Of a stretch of DNA of 64,000 nucleotides, positions 1 through 10,004 are shown in pieces. Source of the stretch: Pseudomonas fluorescens. Its GTDB lineage: Bacteria; Pseudomonadota; Gammaproteobacteria; Pseudomonadales; Pseudomonadaceae. The notes below the pieces were generated by a model. It was not told where the DNA came from and ran no database searches. It saw only the letters and a list, made by a program, of their open reading frames with translations. The stretch lies in NCBI RefSeq assembly GCF_902497775.2, contig NZ_OZ024668.1, forward strand, positions 4,076,326 through 4,140,325, written 5' to 3'. The translations under genes were made by a program, and so were the position numbers. Every line of letters begins with the position of its first letter. Position 1 is the first letter of the stretch.

Positions 1-215
1 TAGAACGCCGAGCGGATCACCGAACGCTTGATTGCCTCCGGCCAGGTTTCATCCCAGCGATCCACCGACCAGGCCCAGGCCAACTGATGCAGCAGGTGCG
101 CCGGACAGGTGTCGGGGTTGTACAGCGCACGCAGGGGGACTTCGGTGGTTTCAAAGCCGGCGGCTTCGATGGCCTGTTCGAGATCGGTACTGTTGAGCGG
201 GAGCAGACTGTCCAT
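1..215 (-). CDS. Tailocin baseplate protein gpI (tail protein I), 3' end outside window
   Basis: Only the first 71 codons are present; the gene runs off the left edge. The ATG at 215 lies 1 base after the gpJ stop and follows a GAGGAAGC ribosome site inside the gpJ end. The translated start (MDSLLPLNSTDLEQAI, then ALYNPDTCPAHLLHQLAWAW and SVDRWDETW) has the typical look of P2 gpI proteins, which sit at the baseplate rim and help attach the tail fibres. The order gpV-gpW-gpJ-gpI supports the call. A tail-fibre gene would be expected next, beyond the window. Confidence 0.85.
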   Translation of the reverse strand, partial: MDSLLPLNSTDLEQAIEAAGFETTEVPLRALYNPDTCPAHLLHQLAWAWSVDRWDETWPEAIKRSVIRSAF

Positions 216-216
216 G

Positions 217-1098
217 TCAGCTTCCTCGCGTCACGGTGATCCCTTCGCACCAGGCCGCTTGCGCCTGGGTCGGGCGGATGTCGGTCCAGTTGTTCAGGTC
301 GACTCGGCTGACGCCGTTGATATGCAACTGGGCGTCCACGCCGGAACGGGCAACTTGAGCGCCCAGGCGCCGGCGCGGATTGACCCAGGCTTGCAGCCGG
401 CTTTTGCACTCGGCAAGCGTCGCTTCAACCTCCGGGCCGCTGCCGCTCATGTGCACCATGGCATCGATGCGGTAGCGCAAGATCTGCGCACCTTGTACCG
501 TCAGGCGGTCGCCCACCGGGCGCACGTCATCGTCATTGAGCTTGAGCCGCACGGTGTCCAGCAGCGCAGCTGTGGCGCTGCCATCGCCTTCGAGCGCCAG
601 CACCGTCACCACCACCTGGGCCGGCGACGGGCTTTCGGCGCTGGCATCGGCCACCAGGCCGGAAGCGTTGCGGGCATGCAGGATGTAACTGTTGCGCGGA
701 CCCGCCGTGGTCAGCCCTTCATAGACCAGCTGCACTCGCTCACGCAGGGCGTCGTCTTCCTCGAGCACCAGCTGCGTTGGCGGCACCGTGCTGGTGTCCT
801 GAGCCTGCACCACCAGGCGCTGCAGTTGTACATTGGCCGCCAGTTGATCCAGATCGGAACCCTGCGCATAAGCCAGCAACAGTGCCTTGGCGGCATCGTT
901 GACCCGTGCGCGGTTGAGCAGCTTGCGGTAGGCGCCGACTTCCAACAGTTTGTTCACCGGGTCGCTTTCGACTGCGGCGTCCCAGTTGTCGCCCATATGC
1001 GACCGGAAGGTCGCCAGGTCAGCCTGGAAGAGTTCCTCGAAATCGAGGTCTTCCAGAACCTGCGGCGCGGGCAGCGCCGAAAGATCCACACTACTCAT
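217..1098 (-). CDS. Tailocin baseplate protein gpJ
   Basis: A 293-residue homologue of P2 gpJ, a baseplate wedge component of contractile tails. The chosen ATG at 1098 follows a very strong ribosome site (GGAGGTGACGGC) and overlaps the gpW stop by four bases (ATGA); an upstream in-frame start at 1215 would lie deep inside gpW. Family features visible are the start MSSVDLSALPAPQVLEDLDF, the stretch DPVNKLLEVGAYRKLL around residue 45, and the conserved C-terminal region with LNNWTDI. It is translationally coupled to gpW before it and gpI after it. Confidence 0.92.
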   Translation of the reverse strand: MSSVDLSALPAPQVLEDLDFEELFQADLATFRSHMGDNWDAAVESDPVNKLLEVGAYRKLLNRARVNDAAKALLLAYAQGSDLDQLAANVQLQRLVVQAQDTSTVPPTQLVLEEDDALRERVQLVYEGLTTAGPRNSYILHARNASGLVADASAESPSPAQVVVTVLALEGDGSATAALLDTVRLKLNDDDVRPVGDRLTVQGAQILRYRIDAMVHMSGSGPEVEATLAECKSRLQAWVNPRRRLGAQVARSGVDAQLHINGVSRVDLNNWTDIRPTQAQAAWCEGITVTRGS

Positions 1099-1421
1099 GC
1101 CGTCACCTCCAAAGTCTGGTTGGCGCCCTGGTACTGTCCGCTCAGTTGCAGAGTGATCTGCCCGCCCACCACTGCCGTTACTCGGACCCGCTCCAGCTTC
1201 AGTCGTGGCTCCCAACGGCCCAGTGCGCGCGCCACCTCCGCCTGCACCGCGCTTTTCCAGCCTTCGTTGACCGGCAAGTCGACGAAGCGGCGCAGCTTGC
1301 TGCCGTATTCCGGGCGCATGCGCCGGCTGCCCAGTGGCGTAGTGAGGATGTCTTCGATGGACTGGCGCAAATGTGCAATGCCGGATAACGGCTGGCCGCT
1401 CCGGCGATCCATGCCGATCAT
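1095..1421 (-). CDS. Tailocin baseplate protein gpW (gp25-like wedge protein)
   Basis: A 108-residue protein of the P2 gpW / T4 gp25 family. These small proteins form the inner baseplate wedge and start sheath polymerisation. The family signature is clear: SIEDILTTPLGSRRMRPEYGS near residues 21-41, with the invariant TPLGSR-RPEYG pattern. ATG at 1421 follows GGAGAACATCA. The gene sits 46 bases after gpV, with an intrinsic terminator-like hairpin between them, and overlaps gpJ by 4 bases. Confidence 0.92.
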   Translation of the reverse strand: MIGMDRRSGQPLSGIAHLRQSIEDILTTPLGSRRMRPEYGSKLRRFVDLPVNEGWKSAVQAEVARALGRWEPRLKLERVRVTAVVGGQITLQLSGQYQGANQTLEVTA

Positions 1422-1437
1422 TGATGTTCTCCAGGCG

Positions 1438-1463
1438 TAAAAAAGCCCGCAGTGGGCGGGCCG
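1438..1463 (-). terminator. Intrinsic terminator-like hairpin between gpV and gpW
   Basis: On the minus strand a GCCCGC stem, short loop and GCGGGC are followed by six T residues. It lies directly after the gpV stop (1468) and before gpW (1421), inside the baseplate operon. By its sequence it should terminate at least part of the transcripts. Confidence 0.6.
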
Positions 1464-1467
1464 GTTT

Positions 1468-2028
1468 TCAGTGTTTGTGATTGGCGGTGTTGCCGCCGGT
1501 GTCGATGATCTTACCGCCGCCGAGGATGTCGCCGGTTACCCGCAGGGGTCCGTTGATGTGCACCTCGCCAGTCAGGGTGATACTCGCAGCATTCGCGGTG
1601 ATGGCCTGATCCGTTACCACTGCAGAGCTGCTGCCAACCTTGATGTTGACGGTACCGCTGGGGAGCTCGATGCTGTAGCTGCGGGCCTGCCAGTCGTAGA
1701 CCAGCGAGCCACCATCGTCGAAGCGCCAGACCTCGACATGCTCGCGATTGTCCGCTGGCGCCCCGGCGTTGCCGTACAGGCCAGGCACGAAAGTGCCTTG
1801 TGCAGGTTCACCGCTCGGGCTGATCAACACCCCTTGCTCGTTTAGGCTGGGCGCACGCCAGTGGCGCACCTTGCCAGCGGCCTGGCTGTGCCAGCGCAAC
1901 CAGGCGCTGGTCCAGCCGGCGCCGTCGGCCACTCGCACTCGAGCGGCGGCAAGGTCAACAGCGACCACCCGGCAGGGAATCACCAGGCCGGCGAGCATGC
2001 GGTCGTGCATGGCGCTGGCGTAGCTCAT
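1468..2028 (-). CDS. Tailocin baseplate spike protein gpV
   Basis: A 186-residue homologue of P2 gpV, the trimeric central spike that pierces the target outer membrane. The N-terminal half is the OB-fold part (residues about 15-100, with ISPSGEPAQGTFVPGLYG); the C-terminal part is a beta-helix rich in G, T and V. It ends in NTANHKH, giving the HxH pair that in P2-type spikes binds an iron ion at the needle tip. ATG at 2028 overlaps the upstream stop (ATGA) and has a GGAGGA ribosome site. The apex function is inferred from the family. Confidence 0.93.
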   Translation of the reverse strand: MSYASAMHDRMLAGLVIPCRVVAVDLAAARVRVADGAGWTSAWLRWHSQAAGKVRHWRAPSLNEQGVLISPSGEPAQGTFVPGLYGNAGAPADNREHVEVWRFDDGGSLVYDWQARSYSIELPSGTVNIKVGSSSAVVTDQAITANAASITLTGEVHINGPLRVTGDILGGGKIIDTGGNTANHKH

Positions 2029-2543
2029 TGCATATCCTCCGGCGATTGGTAATCCGCTTCAAAGCCCGCACCGGTATCGGGGCTGAAGGCAAAGGCCAGC
2101 GGGCCCGGTTCAACGGGCCATGGCCATTGCTCGGCCCCCAGATACAGCACCTGCTCCCACTGCACCCGCCAACTGATTGGTGAAGTCGAGTCTGCTGCAG
2201 GTTGGACTACCGACGCCTGGACATTTTTGGCAGCCTCGACAAAGTCCATTTGCCAGAACTGCTGGCGCAACAAAATGGTCAACTGCATTGCCAGGGCAGT
2301 CACCAACAGCGGTGCCGGCGCAACACCGGCATCAACCAGGATGCGTGCTTCGAAGCTTGCCAGGATGCAACAGCGGCCATCGCCTGGATCTGCTGCGGGC
2401 TTAGAACCGGTTATAGCGTGATACAGCGCAGGAAGCGCCGTGTTCTGATCCGCTGCGGTATAGGCTGCAACGGTTTCAAGTTGAGGCATAGCGGCCTTGA
2501 TAGTCGCGGTAATGGCCTCGTGCAACGTCGTTAATTCGTTCAC
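2025..2543 (-). CDS. Conserved tailocin protein, PA0615-like
   Basis: A 172-residue protein starting with GTG at 2543 after a GAGGAGCGCAG ribosome site. Its place between the lysis genes and gpV is that of PA0615 in the P. aeruginosa R-pyocin cluster, whose role is not established. The sequence shows no membrane segment or catalytic motif; the middle (ILLRQQFWQMDFVEAA) and C-terminal half (WRVQWEQVLYLG) resemble phage tail completion or terminator proteins in character, but that is inference. The stop overlaps the gpV start. Confidence is high that it is a gene, low on function. Confidence 0.8.
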   Translation of the reverse strand: MNELTTLHEAITATIKAAMPQLETVAAYTAADQNTALPALYHAITGSKPAADPGDGRCCILASFEARILVDAGVAPAPLLVTALAMQLTILLRQQFWQMDFVEAAKNVQASVVQPAADSTSPISWRVQWEQVLYLGAEQWPWPVEPGPLAFAFSPDTGAGFEADYQSPEDMQ

Positions 2544-2662
2544 CTGCGCTCCTCGGCAACATTATCGTCAGGCACACGAAATCCGTGCGCCATCGCTCGG
2601 TCGGTTTGAGGGAGTTGTGCCTTGATGTTGCGGCACGAGGCACCTGTTGAAACCAGGTGCAT
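2540..2662 (-). CDS. Possible 40-residue ORF before the PA0615-like gene
   Basis: An ORF beginning MHLVSTGASCRNIKAQLPQT ends with TGA overlapping the GTG start of the next gene (GTGA), an arrangement typical of coupled phage genes. There is no convincing ribosome site, the ORF opens inside an inverted repeat (GCACCTG/CAGGTGC, about 2640-2660), and no family is recognised. It can be read in frame back to 2722, inside the preceding gene. It may instead be leader sequence or a gene remnant. Confidence 0.25.
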   Translation of the reverse strand: MHLVSTGASCRNIKAQLPQTDRAMAHGFRVPDDNVAEERR

Positions 2663-2673
2663 TGGATAAGGGA

Positions 2674-3330
2674 CTAGTGGGTAGTCGCGTGATCCGTCGG
2701 GGCTCTCAAGTGTCGCCACCAAGTCACCACAGCCGCCAGCAGACTCAGCACAGCCATCAGCACGGAAACTACCAGCCCGCGTTGCGCGCGCTCATCGCCA
2801 ACCGATACAACATGCTTGAGCAGGCTGTCATCAAACAGCAACCGACCGTCGAGCGAGTGCATTTCACGAACAATCACGTCCTCGGATATGCGCTCGACCA
2901 GCAACGCTACGTTCGCCTTTTCAGACAGTTGCGAGGATTGCAAAATATCTTTAGGCACATACACAGTCCGCCGCTGGTCTTCGCGTTCACCCGGCAGTCT
3001 GAACCTTACCCCCATGCGCATCAGCGATTGATCATAGTTCCACACCTCGGACCACCCCGTCAGCCGGCCTTCCAGGCCTTGCATTTGAAGAGGATTCGGC
3101 GTGGTATAGCCCTGAATGCTGCTCATGGATAAAACTGCAAACAACGACGTGACGACTACCAGCATGCAGTAAATCTTGATCTGTGATTTGGGTGGCTGCG
3201 ATGTGATCTGAGAGAACACCGAAGGCATGGGATTCCTTTCAAGACTGGGCAATTCTTTGCCAACCCTAGCACGCAAAGCATCTGTGCTGTCCGTGATGCA
3301 GCTGTCCGCGTCGGCAAAAACCTGATTCAT
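2674..3330 (-). CDS. Unknown two-helix membrane protein in the tailocin lysis region
   Basis: A 218-residue protein of unrecognised family. Visible architecture: a hydrophilic N-terminus, a membrane helix at about 52-73 (IYCMLVVVTSLFAVLSM), a soluble segment at about 74-185 with a basic, beta-like pattern (GVRFRLPGEREDQRRTVYVP), a second helix at about 187-207 (GLVVSVLMAVLSLLAAVVTWW) and a short basic tail. Both ends would be cytoplasmic with a periplasmic domain between. ATG at 3330 lies 4 bases after the holin stop and uses AAGGAG in the holin end; ATG at 3228 (184 residues) also has a good AAAGGAAT site and could be the true start. The position suggests a role in lysis or envelope disruption, but nothing in the sequence proves it. 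Confidence 0.65.
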   Translation of the reverse strand: MNQVFADADSCITDSTDALRARVGKELPSLERNPMPSVFSQITSQPPKSQIKIYCMLVVVTSLFAVLSMSSIQGYTTPNPLQMQGLEGRLTGWSEVWNYDQSLMRMGVRFRLPGEREDQRRTVYVPKDILQSSQLSEKANVALLVERISEDVIVREMHSLDGRLLFDDSLLKHVVSVGDERAQRGLVVSVLMAVLSLLAAVVTWWRHLRAPTDHATTH

Positions 3331-3334
3331 CGCC

Positions 3335-3688
3335 TCACTCCTTGTTGCCAGGGCTCTCCATGTTTGGCGATTGCGTCTCGATGCCCAGCCGCCGGGCCGC
3401 CCATCGCTCATAAAGGCCAATGGCGACATCGGCGCCGGCCATGGCGGTGAGGCAACCAAAAGCGCTGGCGCTCCAGATCGACATGCCGCTGGCGTACAGC
3501 AGCATCACCGTGGACACGCCGCAGACCATGCAGGCCCCCGAGCGCAATAACAGGCGCCGAAAAAGCGCCCAACCTCGGGCACCGGCCTTGTCCGCGCGCC
3601 ACATCTCTCCGGAAAGGCCGCCCAGCAAGGCCAGGACGATCACCAGCCAGATCGGCATTTCCAGCAACGTCTGTTGCTCGTTTGTCAC
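3335..3688 (-). CDS. Phage/tailocin holin
   Basis: A 117-residue small membrane protein with three hydrophobic segments (about 12-27, 46-66 and 71-91), including IWLVIVLALLGGLSGEMWR and SGACMVCGVSTVMLLYASGM. It closely resembles the holin at the start of Pseudomonas R-pyocin lysis and tail operons (PA0614 type). Holins form inner-membrane lesions that let tailocin particles be released by lysis. The start is GTG at 3688 behind AAGGAG with 8-base spacing. No endolysin is seen next to it; in the related pyocin loci that gene lies further down the tail operon. Confidence 0.85.
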   Translation of the reverse strand: MTNEQQTLLEMPIWLVIVLALLGGLSGEMWRADKAGARGWALFRRLLLRSGACMVCGVSTVMLLYASGMSIWSASAFGCLTAMAGADVAIGLYERWAARRLGIETQSPNMESPGNKE

Positions 3689-3936
3689 TGTCCTGTCTCC
3701 TTGGTAGTTCCGCTCGGCAGCTTGCCAGCGGCTTTTTTGTACCGTTACCCCCCTGCGAGGTAAAAACGGGTAAAGTTCATCTATCGATTAGCGTCTGAAA
3801 GAGCAGGCGCCGTGGCTCACGACAAGGCTCAGCATTGGCTGAAAAGAGATTCAGCGAATACATCGCTATAGCGAAAACTCGAAATACCGTTTTACCCGCC
3901 ACATACAATCCAATTATTTGAATCACCTGAATCGCC
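3689..3936. promoter_or_regulatory. Divergent control region between holin and immunity gene
   Basis: This 248-base, relatively AT-rich gap separates the minus-strand holin/tail operon from the plus-strand immunity gene. It holds two GGTAAA boxes 10 bases apart (3759-3764 and 3769-3774) and a related TTTACCCG on the plus strand at 3891-3898, so CGGGTAAA occurs as a widely spaced inverted pair. A TACAAT -10-like element lies at about 3904-3909 on the plus strand. No TGCAT element like those near the repressor is present. Function as a promoter is inferred. Confidence 0.4.
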
Positions 3937-4269
3937 ATGGAAAAAAACTACTATTTCAAGAACGTCCTGCTCGCCCTAGGCCTGTGCACAATAGGGACAG
4001 CAGTCTGGATGTACGACAACTCATTTTCAGCAGAGGAAAACCTGTTGTATTTCCTGGCTGCCAGTGCAAGCCTGGTGCTGTTCCCATTCTCGAGAAAGCT
4101 GATCGAACGATTCTTTCTCAGGTTTTCAACGCCGGAATTCTGGAGCCGTGGATTATTCATAGAGACGCCGGCTAAAAATGGCCTTTTTGCGCTGTTTTAT
4201 TTCGCCTGCATGGCGACAGCGATTCCCTTAGGCGGCGCTTACTTTATCTACCTGCTAATAAAAAGGTAG
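3937..4269 (+). CDS. Immunity protein for a pore-forming bacteriocin
   Basis: A 110-residue membrane protein with three clear hydrophobic helices (about 8-26, 34-51 and 84-107), of the size and layout of colicin E1/Ia and pyocin S5 immunity proteins. Such proteins sit in the inner membrane and block the helical hairpin of the cognate pore-forming toxin. The gene is convergent to the bacteriocin gene with only 31 bases between stops, the usual layout for pore-former immunity genes, which are transcribed constitutively on the opposite strand. ATG at 3937 lacks a strong ribosome site. Family assignment rests on topology plus context. Confidence 0.75.
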   Translation: MEKNYYFKNVLLALGLCTIGTAVWMYDNSFSAEENLLYFLAASASLVLFPFSRKLIERFFLRFSTPEFWSRGLFIETPAKNGLFALFYFACMATAIPLGGAYFIYLLIKR

Positions 4270-4300
4270 CCTGCGTTAGCCGCCTGTATGCTTGCGGCCT

Positions 4301-5407
4301 TCACAGCGCGATGACCGCATCGTTGAACTTCTTGACCAGCGCCTCATCGATGTACGCACCGGTCATCGCCATTAACAATGCAAAGGCAACCGCGCCCATC
4401 GCCGTCGAAGCGGCTGCCCCAAAAACAACGGCAAGTAATGCACTTGCGGCGCTGCCAGCAAAAAGTGTTTCCACTTTTAGAAAAGTGTTACTCCACTCTC
4501 CCGTCGTGTAGCTTTTCTTGATTTCTGTCAGCAGGTCGGCGTAATCAATGGCTTTACCGACATAACCGAAGGCCTTGCTGAACTGCTTCAGGTTTTTCGC
4601 CATTTGCTCCTTGTTCAGCGAATCCAATGCCTTGGCAATAGCCTGTCGATCCTTGACACTAAACTTCTTGTTCAACGCGTCTTTATATTTCTCGAACGCC
4701 GCCATGGCCTCCTTAGCATTGCCAATGCGCTTACCCTGGGCACTCGCTGCCAATGCTTGAGCTTGCCCGGCTAGCTGCCCACCCAGTTTCTGCGCCAAGT
4801 CCTTATAAAAATCTGCGGTAAACTTTAGCGCTGCCTTGTAATCAACCTCTGCCTTGGCTTTCTCGTCAGCCAGGCGTTTGGCTTCTTCGGCTTTTCGCTT
4901 TGCTTCAGCCTGTACTCGAGCTGCTTCCTGCGCTTTTCGCTGGGCTTCGATAGCCGCATGTTGCCGAGTGATTTCGGCATTTAGTTTACCCTGACGCTCC
5001 AGCAGGCTGGCGACCTGTTCATTGAGAAGCGTTGCGTTATAAGTAGCCATCAGCTTACCGATACTGTAGCTACTTTTAACCGCCTTCAATTCCGTTTGCA
5101 GCTCACTATTCTTTTTAATCAGCAACGTATTGATGACCGACACTTGCCGTTCCAGCACGACGACGGCCGCAGTATCGGCCAGCGGTGGAAACTGACTGGA
5201 CAACAGGTCGAGTTCTTTCTGCAGGTTGATCTCCAGGTTAGCGTGCGCAGCTTTGTAATCATTTTCGATGCCAATAACAGCTCCCAGCATGGGATTACCC
5301 ATCGGGTAGTTACCGAGAATACTGCCGCGTACCTGACCAGGGTTCAGACTGATAAATTCAACTGACCCGTCGCCGTAAATAATGGTCGTCGCTAGCTCTA
5401 GCGCCAT
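4301..5407 (-). CDS. Pore-forming colicin/pyocin-like bacteriocin
   Basis: A 368-residue toxin. The N-terminus (1-50) is short and Gly/Pro-rich; residues about 55-195 are strongly helical and include an Ala/Lys/Glu-rich coiled segment (EAKRKAEEAKRLADEKAKAE region); residues about 195-368 form a colicin-type pore domain, with amphipathic helices and a hydrophobic hairpin at about 314-350 (AGSAASALLAVVFGAAASTA then MGAVAFALLMAMTG). The ATG at 5407 follows GAAAGGGAA; an in-frame ATG at 5488 lies inside the preceding possible ORF. It would be released by lysis, enter sensitive relatives and depolarise the inner membrane. No pyocin S-type translocation domain is recognisable, and it is shorter than pyocin S5. 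The convergent immunity gene supports the call. Confidence 0.85.
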   Translation of the reverse strand: MALELATTIIYGDGSVEFISLNPGQVRGSILGNYPMGNPMLGAVIGIENDYKAAHANLEINLQKELDLLSSQFPPLADTAAVVVLERQVSVINTLLIKKNSELQTELKAVKSSYSIGKLMATYNATLLNEQVASLLERQGKLNAEITRQHAAIEAQRKAQEAARVQAEAKRKAEEAKRLADEKAKAEVDYKAALKFTADFYKDLAQKLGGQLAGQAQALAASAQGKRIGNAKEAMAAFEKYKDALNKKFSVKDRQAIAKALDSLNKEQMAKNLKQFSKAFGYVGKAIDYADLLTEIKKSYTTGEWSNTFLKVETLFAGSAASALLAVVFGAAASTAMGAVAFALLMAMTGAYIDEALVKKFNDAVIAL

Positions 5408-5420
5408 AAAAAATTCCCTT

Positions 5421-5678
5421 TCAAAACTGAAGCTGCTCGGCATCGTGCCAGCAGCGTATTGGGTAGAACCGATCGCTCGGCATTCCAAAAAGCCCGGCCT
5501 CCCCAGGCTTTTCAGTAATGCGTTGTCGAACCGCCCGCCACGACTGGTGCGCTGGGCGACTCCGCTTCAAATTGTTCTTCCGGCCGCGGCCACCTGCCCG
5601 CCGGATAACTGCTTCTGGTGCTTTACGCTGCACACCCGGGCCAGTTGCCAACCCTCTGAACAGTTCAGGCCTGTTCAT
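5421..5678 (-). CDS. Possible small basic protein upstream of the bacteriocin
   Basis: An 85-residue ORF (MNRPELFRGLATGPGVQRKA...) lies between a predicted promoter (5720-5748) and the bacteriocin start, with its TGA 13 bases before the bacteriocin ATG. A modest AAAGG site precedes the ATG at 5678. The product would be very basic, with an RRAGGRGRKNNLKRSRP stretch. I recognise no family and see no resemblance to the activator PrtN. It could be a regulator, a leader peptide, or simply untranslated leader sequence. Confidence 0.35.
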   Translation of the reverse strand: MNRPELFRGLATGPGVQRKAPEAVIRRAGGRGRKNNLKRSRPAHQSWRAVRQRITEKPGEAGLFGMPSDRFYPIRCWHDAEQLQF

Positions 5679-5719
5679 CGCTGCCTTTGTCACTGCCGGT
5701 GTCGACCGGCTTGAGACAA

Positions 5720-5748
5720 AGATTATGCATTGATGCATATACAGTCAA
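5720..5748 (-). promoter_or_regulatory. Predicted sigma-70 promoter for the bacteriocin unit
   Basis: On the minus strand TTGACT (5748-5743) and TAATCT (5725-5720) are spaced by 17 bases; CATAAT one register upstream is an alternative -10. Transcription would start near 5713 and run into the small ORF and bacteriocin. TGCAT operator-like palindromes cover the spacer and both hexamers, which fits direct repression. Confidence 0.55.
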
Positions 5749-5793
5749 TGCATTTGTGGAAATATTTATGCGCAGGAAAATGCATCTATGCAT
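5725..5793. promoter_or_regulatory. TGCAT operator cluster at the bacteriocin promoter
   Basis: Three elements are seen: TGCATTGATGCA (5726-5737), TGCATATACAGTCAATGCA (5734-5752, overlapping the first) and TGCATCTATGCA (5781-5792). The 19-base element shares its TACAGT core and TGCAT flanks with one at the repressor promoter. They are probable binding sites for the adjacent LexA-like repressor. Confidence 0.55.
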
Positions 5794-5840
5794 GTAAGGC
5801 TTGATCTACCTGGGCTGGACCGATTTCCTGCAGGCGAAAA

Positions 5841-5863
5841 AAAACCCGCCGAAGCGGGCTTTT
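5841..5863 (-). terminator. Terminator after the prtR-like gene
   Basis: CCCGC-CGAA-GCGGG hairpin flanked by A/T runs; read on the minus strand it ends in eight T residues, 18 bases after the repressor stop. Confidence 0.75.
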
Positions 5864-5880
5864 CTGAGGACGTGGACTAC

Positions 5881-6615
5881 TCAGCGGGCGTACATACCCC
5901 ACCAGAACACATGCCCGAGGATGCTGATCTGCTCCTCCTGCATCTGCTGGAAGCTGTAGTCTTCATCCGGGTGCTCGTCGCGATTGAAGCTGCGCAGGCG
6001 AATGCCGGTAGGCAGGCGATAGAGCTGCTTTACCCGCAACTGGCCGTTATGGTTGATGGCGTACAGGTCGCCGTCGACGATGTCGCCGATGCCACTTTTA
6101 CCGGCGTTGACGCCGACCGTGGCGCCGTCACGCAGTACCGGCAACATGCTGTTGCCGCGCACCGTCACGCACTTGGCCTGATCGAACTGCACGCCGTTGT
6201 GGCGCAGGCTGCGCTTGCCGAAGCGCAGGCTGGCCTTCTCGCTTTCTTCGATGACGAATCTTCCTGATCCTGCTGCCAACTCGACCTCGCGAAGAAACGG
6301 AATGGACACCTCGTCGTCCTCGACCGGGGTGTCGTCATCCCACAGGCTGATATCGTGCAACTCTGCATGACTGCGGCCAGGCGCGGCTTCACGGCTTTCG
6401 CCGAGCTCGGCGCGACCGCGCAACTGGTCGGTGCTCACGCCGAAGTACTCGGCGATCTTCGACACGTGTTTATCGGACGGGTCGACGATTTTCTCGCTGA
6501 GAATACGCGACAGGGTGGATTGCGGCACGCCGGTACGCCGGTGCAGCTCCGTGGGGGAGAGACCGTGGCGATCGAGCAGTGCTCTGAGGACGGATGCTAC
6601 GTTGCGTTTTTGCAT
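5881..6615 (-). CDS. prtR: LexA/CI-like tailocin repressor (PrtR type)
   Basis: A 244-residue repressor with an N-terminal helix-turn-helix (about 5-60; GLSPTELHRRTGVPQSTLSR) and a C-terminal S24 self-cleavage domain. The cleavage pair is Ala115-Gly116 (VELAAGSGRF), the catalytic serine Ser156 (VRGNSMLPV) and the lysine Lys196 (QLRVKQLY). Family knowledge: activated RecA triggers self-cleavage after DNA damage and derepresses pyocin genes. The ATG at 6615 was chosen because MQKRNVASVLRALLDRHG begins the DNA-binding domain; an ATG at 6624 falls inside the predicted -10 box. No separate prtN homologue is visible in this window. Confidence 0.88.
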   Translation of the reverse strand: MQKRNVASVLRALLDRHGLSPTELHRRTGVPQSTLSRILSEKIVDPSDKHVSKIAEYFGVSTDQLRGRAELGESREAAPGRSHAELHDISLWDDDTPVEDDEVSIPFLREVELAAGSGRFVIEESEKASLRFGKRSLRHNGVQFDQAKCVTVRGNSMLPVLRDGATVGVNAGKSGIGDIVDGDLYAINHNGQLRVKQLYRLPTGIRLRSFNRDEHPDEDYSFQQMQEEQISILGHVFWWGMYAR

Positions 6616-6674
6616 AAAATGCATAATGCCGGGAGCTTGAATAGAATGCAAACACTGTAATGCATGAATATGCA
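6611..6674. promoter_or_regulatory. prtR-like promoter and TGCAT operators
   Basis: Minus-strand TTGCAT (6651-6646) and CATTAT (6628-6623) with 17-base spacing would start transcription at or next to the repressor ATG at 6615, giving a leaderless or nearly leaderless mRNA. Operator-like elements are TGCATAAAATGCA (6611-6623), ATGCAAACACTGTAATGCAT (6646-6665) and TGCATGAATATGCA (6661-6674). They overlap both promoter hexamers, which fits autoregulation. Confidence 0.55.
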
Positions 6675-6784
6675 CGGACAAATGGTCGCGCCCGCCCGTT
6701 TGCCCTCGGCAGCCCAGGCAAAATCCCTGTACCATTGCCCGCTTGCCTTTGGTCTACAACGACACTGCGAGCCAAGTTTTTGCA

Positions 6785-9352
6785 ATGAGCGATCTTTCCG
6801 CACACACCCCGATGATGCAGCAGTACTGGAAGCTGAAAAACCAGCACCCGGACCAGCTGATGTTCTACCGCATGGGCGACTTCTACGAGATCTTCTACGA
6901 AGACGCGAAGAAGGCCGCAAAACTCCTGGACATCACCCTGACCGCCCGCGGGCAGTCGGCGGGCCAGTCGATTCCCATGTGTGGCATCCCCTACCACGCA
7001 GCCGAGGGCTACCTGGCCAAGCTGGTGAAGCTGGGCGAGTCGGTGGTGATCTGCGAGCAGATCGGCGACCCGGCCACCAGCAAGGGCCCGGTGGAGCGCC
7101 AGGTAGTGCGCATCATTACCCCGGGTACGGTCAGTGACGAAGCGCTGCTCGACGAGCGCCGCGACAACCTGATCGCCGCCGTGCTGGGTGACGAGCGCCT
7201 GTTCGGCCTGGCTGTGCTGGACATCACCAGTGGCAACTTCAGCGTGCTCGAGATCAAGGGCTGGGAAAACCTGCTGGCCGAGCTCGAGCGCATCAATCCG
7301 GTCGAGTTGCTGATCCCCGACGATTGGCCCCAGGGCCTGCCAGCGGAGAAACGCCGTGGCGCACGTCGCCGTGCGCCGTGGGATTTTGACCGCGATTCGG
7401 CACGCAAAAGCCTTTGCCAGCAGTTCGCTACCCAGGACCTCAAGGGGTTTGGCTGCGAGAAGCTGACCCTGGCCATTGGCGCCGCCGGCTGCCTGCTCGG
7501 TTACGCCAAGGAAACCCAGCGTACCGCCCTGCCCCACCTGCGCAGCCTCAAGCATGAGCGCCTGGACGACACCGTGGTGCTCGACGGCGCCAGCCGGCGC
7601 AACCTCGAGCTGGATGTGAACCTGGCCGGCGGCCGCGACAACACCCTGCAATCGGTAATCGACCGTTGCCAGACCGCCATGGGCAGCCGCCTGCTGACCC
7701 GTTGGCTGAACCGCCCGCTGCGCGACCTGAAAGTGCTGCAGGCGCGTCAGGGCTCGATTCGTTGCCTGCTCGACGGCTACCGCTTCGAGAAGCTGCAACC
7801 GCAGTTGAAGGAAATCGGCGACATCGAGCGCATCCTCGCCCGTATTGGCCTGCGCAACGCCCGTCCGCGGGACCTGGCGCGCCTGCGCGATGCCCTCGGC
7901 GCCCTGCCTGAACTGCAGAACGCCATGGCCGAGCTTGAGGCGCCGCACCTGGCGCGCCTGGCCGCCATCGCCGGGACCTACCCGGAGCTTGCCGACCTGC
8001 TGGCCAAAGCCATCATCGACAACCCGCCGGCGGTCATCCGCGACGGCGGCGTGCTCAAGACCGGCTACGACAGCGAGCTGGACGAGCTGCTGGCCATGAG
8101 CGAAAACGCCGGGCAGTTCCTGATCGATCTGGAAGCCCGCGAGAAAGCCCGCACGGGCCTGGCCAACCTCAAGGTCGGCTACAACCGTGTGCACGGCTAC
8201 TTCATCGAGCTGCCAAGCAAACAGGCCGAACAGGCGCCCGCTGATTACATCCGGCGCCAGACCCTCAAGGGCGCCGAGCGCTTCATCACCCCGGAGCTGA
8301 AAACCTTCGAAGACAAGGCGCTATCGGCCAAGAGCCGCGCACTTGCCCGCGAGAAGATGCTCTATGACGCCTTGCTGGAGAACCTGATCGGTCACCTGGC
8401 GCCGTTGCAGGACACCGCCGCAGCCCTGGCTGAGCTGGATGTGCTGAGCAACCTGGCCGAGCGTGCACTGAACCTGGACCTGAACTGCCCAAGTTTCGTC
8501 GACGAACCGTGCATGCGTATTACCCAGGGCCGTCACCCGGTGGTCGAGCAGGTACTGACCACGCCATTCGTGGCCAACGACCTGGCGCTGGATGACAACA
8601 CCCGGATGCTGGTGATCACCGGTCCGAACATGGGCGGTAAATCCACCTACATGCGCCAGACCGCACTGATCGTGCTGATGGCGCATATCGGCAGCTTCGT
8701 TCCGGCCGCGGCCTGTGAGCTGTCGCTGGTCGACCGCATCTTCACCCGCATCGGTTCCAGCGATGACTTGGCCGGCGGCCGCTCGACCTTCATGGTCGAG
8801 ATGAGCGAAACCGCCAACATCCTGCACAACGCCACCGAGCGTAGCCTGGTGCTGATGGATGAAGTCGGTCGCGGCACCAGTACCTTCGACGGCCTGTCGC
8901 TGGCCTGGGCCGCTGCCGAGCGTCTGGCGCAATTGCGTGCCTACACCCTGTTCGCCACGCATTACTTCGAGCTGACGGTATTGCCAGAGAGCGAACCGCT
9001 GGTGGCCAACGTGCACCTGAACGCCACCGAGCACAACGAACGTATCGTATTCCTGCACCACGTGCTGCCCGGCCCTGCCAGCCAGAGCTACGGCTTGGCG
9101 GTAGCGCAACTGGCTGGCGTACCGTCACCGGTGATCCAGCGTGCCCGTGAACACCTGGGCCGACTGGAAACTGCCAGCCTGCCCCATGAAACTCCTGTCT
9201 TGCAGCAAGGTGCACCTGCCGTACCGCACCAGAGCGACCTGTTTGCCAGCCTGCCGCATCCGGCCATCGAGAAGCTCGGAAAGCTGGACCTGGACAACAT
9301 GACGCCGCGTCAAGCTATCGAAATGCTCTATACACTGAAGACTCTGTTATAA
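6785..9352 (+). CDS. mutS: DNA mismatch repair ATPase MutS
   Basis: An 855-residue MutS, close to the usual pseudomonad length. It recognises mismatches and small loops and recruits MutL. The mismatch-reading Phe-x-Glu motif is at F33-Y-E35 (GDFYEIFY); the ATPase has Walker [10 protein letters not shown] at about 613-621 and Walker [17 protein letters not shown] at about 688-703, followed by the conserved ATHYFEL. The start [20 protein letters not shown] is the family start; an earlier in-frame ATG at 6743 lies in the intergenic region. It is the chromosomal anchor beside which the tailocin cluster sits. Confidence 0.98.
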
Positions 9353-9372
9353 CGCGCGCTCGCACAAGCTGA

Positions 9373-9438
9373 TAGAATCCCGCGCGGTTTGGCGGCGCTG
9401 CAGGTTACTAGCCTGGCCTGCAGCCGAACAACCAAACC
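9373..9438 (+). promoter_or_regulatory. fdxA promoter and structured leader
   Basis: A TAGAAT -10-like box lies at 9373-9378. About eight bases later a nested fold can form: GGTTTGG (9386-9392) with CCAAACC (9432-9438) enclosing GCTGCAGG (9397-9404) with CCTGCAGC (9417-9424). The leader runs about 105 bases to the fdxA ATG. Confidence 0.4.
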
Positions 9439-9492
9439 GAGCGGCCCTGTCTGGTAGGGCACCGCTGCCGTCGCCTGAGGAGAGAATTAGAA

Positions 9493-9816
9493 ATGACCTT
9501 CGTCGTCACCGACAACTGCATCAAGTGCAAGTACACCGACTGCGTAGAAGTCTGTCCGGTGGACTGCTTCTACGAAGGCCCGAACTTCCTGGTCATTCAC
9601 CCGGACGAGTGCATCGACTGTGCACTGTGCGAGCCTGAATGCCCCGCCGTCGCCATTTTCTCGGAAGACGAAGTGCCTGCCGGCATGGAAAACTTCATCG
9701 AGCTCAATGCCGAGCTTGCGGAAATCTGGCCGAACATCACCGAAAAGAAAGATTCGCTGCCAGATGCCGCCGAGTGGGATGGCAAGACCGGCAAGATCGC
9801 CGATCTGGAGCGCTAA
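9493..9816 (+). CDS. fdxA: Seven-iron ferredoxin FdxA
   Basis: A 107-residue ferredoxin carrying a [3Fe-4S] and a [4Fe-4S] cluster, as in Azotobacter ferredoxin I. By that pattern Cys9, Cys17 and Cys50 bind the 3Fe cluster and Cys21, Cys40, Cys43 and Cys46 the 4Fe cluster; extra cysteines are at 12 and 25. The acidic C-terminal tail is typical. It acts as a low-potential cytosolic electron carrier whose partners are not shown by context. The ATG follows GAGGAGAGAATTAGAA. A strong two-way terminator follows. Confidence 0.96.
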
Positions 9817-9830
9817 GCGCGCGGATCAAC

Positions 9831-9857
9831 AAAAAAGGCCCTTCGAGGGCCTTTTTT
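9831..9857 (+). terminator. fdxA terminator
   Basis: Perfect hairpin GGCCCTCGAAGGGCC-type (GGCCCT-TCG-AGGGCC) flanked by A6 and T6, so it can work on both strands; it lies 15 bases after the fdxA stop. Confidence 0.85.
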
Positions 9858-9872
9858 ATGTTTGTTGCGGGC

Positions 9873-10004
9873 AAAAAAAAGGGGCGGTTTAACCCGCCCA
9901 CATTTTTTCCGTAGTCCCTTTGTTCCCTTTCATCATCCTGATGAATCGCATCCTGCGATGTCCTTTGGCTTTCATCCTTGAGAGCCTGTGTCAGTCCGTA
10001 GACA
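9873..10004 (-). ncRNA. rsmZ: RsmZ regulatory small RNA
   Basis: The minus strand encodes a roughly 130-base RNA with eight GGA motifs, at least four in hairpin loops: TGTC-TACGGACT-GACA at the 5' end, GCTCTCAAGGATGAAAGC, TCGC-AGGAT-GCGA and TTCATC-AGGAT-GATGAA. It ends in a GGGCGG/CCGCCC terminator with eight T residues. The fdxA-rpoS gap is the known place of rsmZ in Pseudomonas. RsmZ titrates the translational repressor RsmA/CsrA, relieving repression of secondary metabolism and biofilm genes. A GacA box upstream gives its control. The 5' end is estimated from the TAATAT box at 10018-10013. Confidence 0.92.

Follow-up and report, generated by a model that had tools for sequence, protein, structure and literature searches.

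According to the available text of PMC5277000, colicin M-type pairs occur in tailocins located between mutS and cinA. The available parts of PMC2647930 describe a mutS–cinA element with a colicin M-like gene in Q8r1-96, and lectin-like bacteriocin genes by prophages in Pf-5. Also pore-formers are known from such clusters: in the available text of PMC5358913, the tailocin of P. putida PA14H7 carries as cargo a pore-former of either type, ColIa/PyoS5 and ColN. PMC6240691 suggests, as far as its available text goes, that bacteriocin genes so placed may benefit from shared expression and lysis.

The DNA analyzed here, a stretch of 64,000 nucleotides from Pseudomonas fluorescens (the window), includes a pore-former and immunity gene pair within an R-tailocin cluster. 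The following genes were identified:

217..2028, minus strand: R-tailocin baseplate genes J (217-1110), W (1095-1421) and V (1468-2028), by domain matches
3335..3688, minus strand: holin (PF16085), by Pfam
3937..4269, plus strand: convergent immunity gene of colicin E1 type (PF03526), 110 aa, by Pfam and pairing in relatives
4301..5407, minus strand: pore-forming bacteriocin of pyocin S5/colicin Ia type, 368 aa, by Pfam, solved-structure match, protein search and fold match
5881..6624, minus strand: PrtR-like repressor with HTH_3 and Peptidase_S24, by Pfam and PHROG repressor families (run on 5881-6636)
6788..9352, plus strand: mutS with MutS domains I-V, the chromosomal boundary of the tailocin locus

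The start codon of the repressor at 6624 was read from the sequence, and the name PrtR was given by resemblance and position. An earlier reading of the sequence alone (the sequence-only reading) had placed the pair between the tailocin repressor and the holin, and this was borne out by the flanking genes, the HTH_3 and Peptidase_S24 repressor and the PF16085 holin, inside an R-tailocin bounded by mutS and cinA. To the left of the window the genome continues with genes for the fibre, tube, sheath, tape measure, hub, a GH19-type lysin and an Rz-type spanin, and with cinA, recA and recX. No capsid genes were found among the cluster proteins scanned, which made up part of the ORFs of the cluster, and the 183-aa ORF at 2674-3225 had no family in Pfam or PHROGs.

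A second pore-former gene (G000:C1:4064788-4066095, 435 aa, PF01024 E 8e-26) is located outside the window, beyond the reach of the sequence-only reading, between the spanin and cinA, and the tailocin therefore has a pore-former near each end. Behind it, and co-directional with it, is a gene for a 190-aa membrane-type protein (G000:C1:4064188-4064760) with no family in Pfam or PHROGs. Like the tailocin of PA14H7, the window tailocin thus carries a PyoS5-like and a weaker-matching pore-former, here one at either end of the cluster. In P. rubra ID1025 (G096, contig 27) both pore-formers and their linked genes are present at matching places between mutS and cinA. The pore-former pair is ordinary tailocin cargo, one more case of a known kind and possibly even the PA14H7 case itself. 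The sequence-only reading had taken the arrangement as surprising, which does not stand beside the available text of these publications, where bacteriocin cargo of mutS–cinA tailocins and pore-former cargo of the PA14H7 tailocin are already reported and lysis piggybacking is suggested; its central idea equals the published suggestion, because the available text of PMC6240691 proposes shared expression and lysis.

The profile search agreed with the proposed 368-residue colicin-like pore-former, as residues 180-363, in the C-terminal half, matched the colicin pore-forming domain PF01024 (E 9.3e-57, 192 bits against a cut-off of 23.4). The ORF, 4301-5407(-), has a GAAAGGGA-type ribosome site upstream. 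Among solved structures the best match was pyocin S5 (6thk, E 5.4e-67). The alignment covers the pore domain and also a helical region ahead of it, where residues 47-164 aligning with pyocin S5 203-319 formed the sole aligned region. The window toxin has 368 aa and the solved chain 506 residues. The N-terminus of the toxin is short, ca. 38 residues, and of low confidence in the AlphaFold2 model. This model is confident only for a helical bundle at ca. residues 40-185; the pore domain is modelled weakly, with a mean pLDDT of 61.6. The single fold match of the model at E ≤ 0.001 was again pyocin S5, resting mainly on ca. residues 40-185 because of the weakness of the model over the pore domain.

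Of the 7,996 candidates scored in the protein search, 63 were returned as relatives, and the whole toxin was covered in four entries only: the window's own, an identical longer form, a P. rubra homologue and another with 52% identity. Tblastn with the toxin gave no match in the phage collection and, in the plasmid collection, no record reaching 80% coverage, the 20 matches listed all being over the pore domain. PADLOC had no match for the toxin, the immunity protein or the 183-aa ORF, and NCBIfam none for the four proteins tested.

The 110-aa protein matched PF03526 (E 9.2e-12, 45 bits against a cut-off of 25). At all 16 loci where an imm1-type gene accompanied the pore gene (G096 counted once) the two were convergent, and at all 13 with the second type of linked gene this one was co-directional; the pairing is not due to chance. 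Both the family match and the 16 convergent loci agree with the convergent immunity partner claimed earlier. The description of the immunity protein as three-helical was upheld in part: a simple hydropathy scan with one threshold flags one region. The available text of PMC5358913 describes the pyocin S5 immunity protein as a three-helix membrane protein. In one further locus, G302:C29 (L060, near 8858), the imm1-type gene alone remains, beside a pore-domain fragment, and is likely an orphan immunity gene. At G019:C1:3890867-3891417 the pore domain is split into two neighbouring pieces, and the gene seems to be broken.

PF01024 had altogether 31 matches in 28 of the 398 genomes of the genus sample. 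Five of these, in three genomes (the own genome, P. rubra and G074), were located beside homologues of this tailocin's genes, when neighbours were sought by tblastn (E ≤ 1e-4) within up to 20 kb and with markers of this tailocin type only. In G074 the pore-former is behind the holin and not before it.

The surroundings of mutS were compared within the genus. MutS was found in 136 of the 137 genomes, and at most 12 kb was taken at the 60 best-ranking matches; the loci of the own genome, P. rubra and G074 were added for their pore-formers to give 63 loci, and G035 was left out (match at contig end). Positions of CinA in the loci of the relatives are approximate (the 153-residue marker query was out of register and included a stop), and the own-genome cinA was checked separately. 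PrtR and holin were found in order at 43 of the 63 loci, the gap between the two matches being 129-277 nt in seven, 465-609 nt in 23 and 1229-2196 nt in 13 loci. The 13 long gaps hold inserts, with pore-formers in two (the own genome and P. rubra). Pfam identified Com zinc-ribbon in three, DUF642 in two (one locus having both), tail-fibre assembly in three and a transposase in one of the others; the remaining inserts yielded no family or lay outside the proteins scanned. In the slot of G098 (L109) a transposase gene (DDE_Tnp_1) lies between prtR and the copy of the leader.

The elements of the leader between prtR and the toxin, and those at the ends of the cassette, are the following:

3712..3737, no strand: 26-nt direct repeat, holin-side copy, by repeat search and G089 alignment
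5435..5460, no strand: 26-nt direct repeat, toxin-side copy, 81% to the other copy, by repeat search and G089 alignment
5479..5521, minus strand: conserved terminator-like hairpin, AAAAGCC...GGCTTTTT core, by alignment of 36 leaders and folding
5555..5692, minus strand: R1, conserved structured leader RNA of ca. 137 nt, 156.5 bits to a model which the window copy helped to build, and covariation
5720..5748, minus strand: promoter-like TTGACT-N17-TAATCT with the operator-like TGCATCAATGCA (5726-5737) in the spacer, by consensus inference
5781..5792, no strand: operator-like palindrome TGCAT-N2-ATGCA, upstream copy, by pattern search against shuffles

The window leader was 94% identical over 422 nt to that of the cargo-free locus G007 and 89% identical over 433 nt to that of the cargo-free G089. 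With G007 the homology ends 62 nt short of the toxin start and begins again 14 nt ahead of the holin start; with G089 the corresponding distances are 28 and 53 nt. The toxin therefore occupies the place of the first gene. Its start is 72 nt behind the terminator-like hairpin, and the holin match is ca. 79 nt (G007) and ca. 69 nt (G089) behind it. The direct repeats at the cassette ends are 1723 nt apart and both copies align to one stretch of G089, and short repeats of this kind can arise by chance. The cassette, ca. 1.7 kb, has 50.1% G+C against 61.5% in the window.

Such foreign composition would also suit a toxin that simply resides in the cluster under a promoter or regulation of its own (e.g. 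LexA or iron), as would the 26 of the 31 PF01024 matches near which, within up to 20 kb, tblastn (E ≤ 1e-4) detected no homologue of the genes of this tailocin. Just 72 nt between the conserved hairpin and the toxin start speak against this explanation, as does the generic promoter scan of 3200-6900, in which no sigma-70-type site was found, the same scan having also missed the conserved promoter-like block of the leader. We regard an independently regulated toxin as quite improbable. Still less probable is that the cassette would be a passenger kept mainly for immunity, with the toxin rarely or never made: the sporadic distribution and the decay in G019 (two-piece pore-former) and G302 (immunity gene and fragment) fit with it, but the toxin has an intact frame, with 77% identity along its full length to the likewise intact P. 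rubra homologue at the same site.

The promoter-like block, the R1 core and the terminator-like hairpin followed each other in this order in the leaders of 36 of the 43 PrtR–holin loci, these 36 having been selected for the presence of all three with at most three errors each. TTGAC followed after 17 nt by TATTCT or TAATCT was present in 30 of the 36, and the palindrome TGCAT-N2-ATGCA of the spacer was exact in 31 and within two substitutions in all 36. The block was also kept in five of the seven PrtR–holin loci without R1. In the window the palindrome had two matches (shuffles on average 0.16, with two or more in 2/100), and the matches before prtR itself were weak. The palindromes are candidate operators, and by their position they may be assigned to PrtR. 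The conserved block, R1 and hairpin run from prtR to the first gene of the operon, which is the holin in the cargo-free relatives and the toxin here.

The domains, the pairing, the position, the promoter-like block with its leader, the R1 covariation and the cassette-end repeats can all be read from the DNA sequence. That the toxin and the tailocin are under a shared switch is likely, and we prefer this reading since the toxin comes immediately behind a leader that elsewhere stands before the holin. The shared switch had been suggested already in the sequence-only reading, and the conserved promoter-like block and leader lend it indirect support.

We consider it probable that a cassette has been inserted between the leader and the holin, with the pore-former as the first gene behind the PrtR-linked promoter and R1, and with a shared scheme of induction and release. 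A cassette of foreign composition, ca. 1.7 kb in size, would have entered the tailocin operon between the leader and the holin gene, so that the pore-former would be the first gene behind the promoter and R1. DNA damage would relieve PrtR and transcription would start just behind 5720-5748; R1 would modify RNA polymerase, or otherwise control the downstream hairpin, so that the long operon would be read through. Toxin and tail particle would be made together and freed by holin–lysin–spanin lysis, the toxin would depolarise the inner membrane of sensitive relatives, and the immunity gene, on the opposite strand and with an upstream region of its own, would protect the producer lineage. Against the shared switch counts that transcription to the holin must run antisense through the immunity gene, and there may be a separate promoter before the holin.

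From the 36 leaders one was dropped for its identical core, and the R1 model was built on the other 35; the R1 core of G098 (L109) was identical to that of G034. The structure-free alignment included 25 of the 27 strong sequences, with two near-duplicates and three weak matches left out. Its predicted structure had 26 pairs, of which 12 were changed on both sides, and 98.9% of the cells were able to pair. Cells with changes on both sides numbered 43 against a shuffled mean of 10.9, and none of the 500 shuffles was as high; for further pair types, 21 of the 500 shuffles attained the number of the alignment. The shuffles ignore sequence relatedness. In the model-fitted alignment of 30 sequences, which leans towards the structure, 16 of the 30 pairs change on both sides. 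R1 is built from four helices, and of 200 shuffles 199 folded less well than the window leader alone. For the second helix there are two mutually exclusive alternatives, 39-45/49-55 and 47-51/84-88, with two pairs changed on both sides in either one.

No Rfam 15 family was found over R1 in positions 1-10000 of the window (E ≤ 1) or in five phage and plasmid records (E ≤ 0.1), and no description of it was found in the open-access literature searched; R1 seems uncatalogued so far. One record annotates a short hypothetical ORF over R1, and the coding interpretation was rejected because the paired changes follow the helices. An Rfam rsmX match at 5839-5925, outside R1, was attributed to chance (32.4 bits against a gathering score of 56). 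The same search of the window gave a PrrB/RsmZ small RNA at 9874-10000, minus strand (120.7 bits, cut by the end of the searched stretch, 1-10000).

Strong matches of R1, altogether 65 with at least 91 bits, were present in 56 of 99 genus genomes, and three further genomes had matches of 22-27 bits only. In the class sample of 185 genomes, the own included, a strong match was found in the own genome only, and one other had an 18.8-bit fragment; weak relatives may have been missed since 17 candidates per genome were scored with strict filters. Among the mutS loci R1 was detected in 36 of the 43 PrtR–holin loci and, in the model search, in none of the 27 others (seven short-gap PrtR–holin loci and 20 without PrtR–holin). 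The seven PrtR–holin loci without R1 are the short-gap loci, in which recA begins within 4.2 kb of mutS. Also G025, a tail-bearing locus without PrtR, had no R1 within the 12 kb examined. R1 tracks the long operons imperfectly, as it is kept in G005, G114 and G135 with no or little tail-gene signal by the markers used.

R1 was also found in phages, with 11 records matched and three phages viewed. In PseuP_224, Orimi01 and Medea1 it is located near phage-type repressors and heads gene rows, the annotated genes behind it in the stretch examined (nine, ten and eight, respectively) being all co-directional. A copy in a prophage of the own genome lies behind an HTH_3 and S24 repressor and is followed downstream by ParB-like and methylase genes and, at a greater distance, by integrase genes:

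G000:C1:2232417-2232554 (L161 17818-17955), minus strand: second own-genome copy of R1, in a prophage behind a CI-type repressor

On P. syringae-group plasmids (27 records matched, six viewed), R1 is between Cro/CI- or XRE-type regulators and a transglycosylase–VirB3–conjugal transfer row (once VirB4) in five of the six viewed, the sixth having no annotated gene in that interval.

A fourth phage record, EU982300, is the tailocin of Q8r1-96. This P. fluorescens ssh6 tailocin shares with the window the mutS–cinA site, as given in the available text of PMC2647930, and also prtR, slot cargo before the holin and R1, which is at 1900-2036 and not annotated in the record. Its slot cargo consists of Com and one gene, and its bacteriocin is colicin M-like and behind the holin, whereas the window toxin is a pore-former before the holin. 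The same record (L123) has a C4 antisense RNA match at 452-538, minus strand, before prtR, and group II intron pieces at 5275-5880.

The available text of PMC9378689 describes HK022 put as a cis RNA downstream of an early phage promoter that acts on distant terminators, ca. 70 nt in size and with two stem-loops. Compared by these descriptions, R1 resembles put in its place by repressors, heading co-directional gene rows in three kinds of mobile element and followed by a terminator-like hairpin, but has ca. 137 nt and four helices, and because of this size and shape it was not classed as put. By this analogy it is plausible that R1 is a processive antiterminator. The nearest published promoter element to the R1 leader is PAPE of lscB/C, in the available text of PMC3899960 and PMC3973379 a mobile phage-associated promoter element with a com gene. 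The com part alone, in some leaders and slots, is common to PAPE and the tailocin leaders; on two plasmids, including the lscB plasmid of 1448A, no R1 was found in the region ahead of the GH68 gene (filters off, E ≤ 1), and an identity of R1 with PAPE was rejected.

Instead of acting on distant terminators, R1 might be an attenuator or translation-control leader affecting the first gene only. A terminator-like hairpin follows R1 in the 36 tailocin leaders (which were selected for having both), and the two mutually exclusive helices, both with changes on both sides, are as a switch might show. A gene-specific signal is made less likely by the wide variation of the first genes behind R1, which include holin, toxin, tail-fibre assembly, Com, phage early genes and a plasmid lytic transglycosylase, and we consider an effect confined to the first gene fairly unlikely. 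The antiterminator reading can be extended to a new Pseudomonas-restricted class of cis-acting processive antiterminators, with four helices and common to phages, tailocins and conjugative plasmids, which bacteriocin cassettes would exploit by inserting behind it; this proposal is tentative and somewhat doubtful. Should R1 prove to be an antiterminator, phage-tail weapons, temperate phages and plasmid conjugation would be connected in this genus through control by a single class of RNA.

The bacteriocin pair adds one more example of known cargo, and the leader RNA before the toxin, overlooked in the sequence-only reading, is the new part, worth following up. By offering a specific promoter, candidate operators and a structured RNA, the leader makes it testable how mutS-locus tailocins of environmental Pseudomonas switch on a cluster of nearly 20 kb behind one repressor. 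In three prophage-like loci (L161, L163 and L168) short ORFs starting with LATGPDGKS recur behind R1, perhaps as another conserved element of the sequence and not as the start of a protein.
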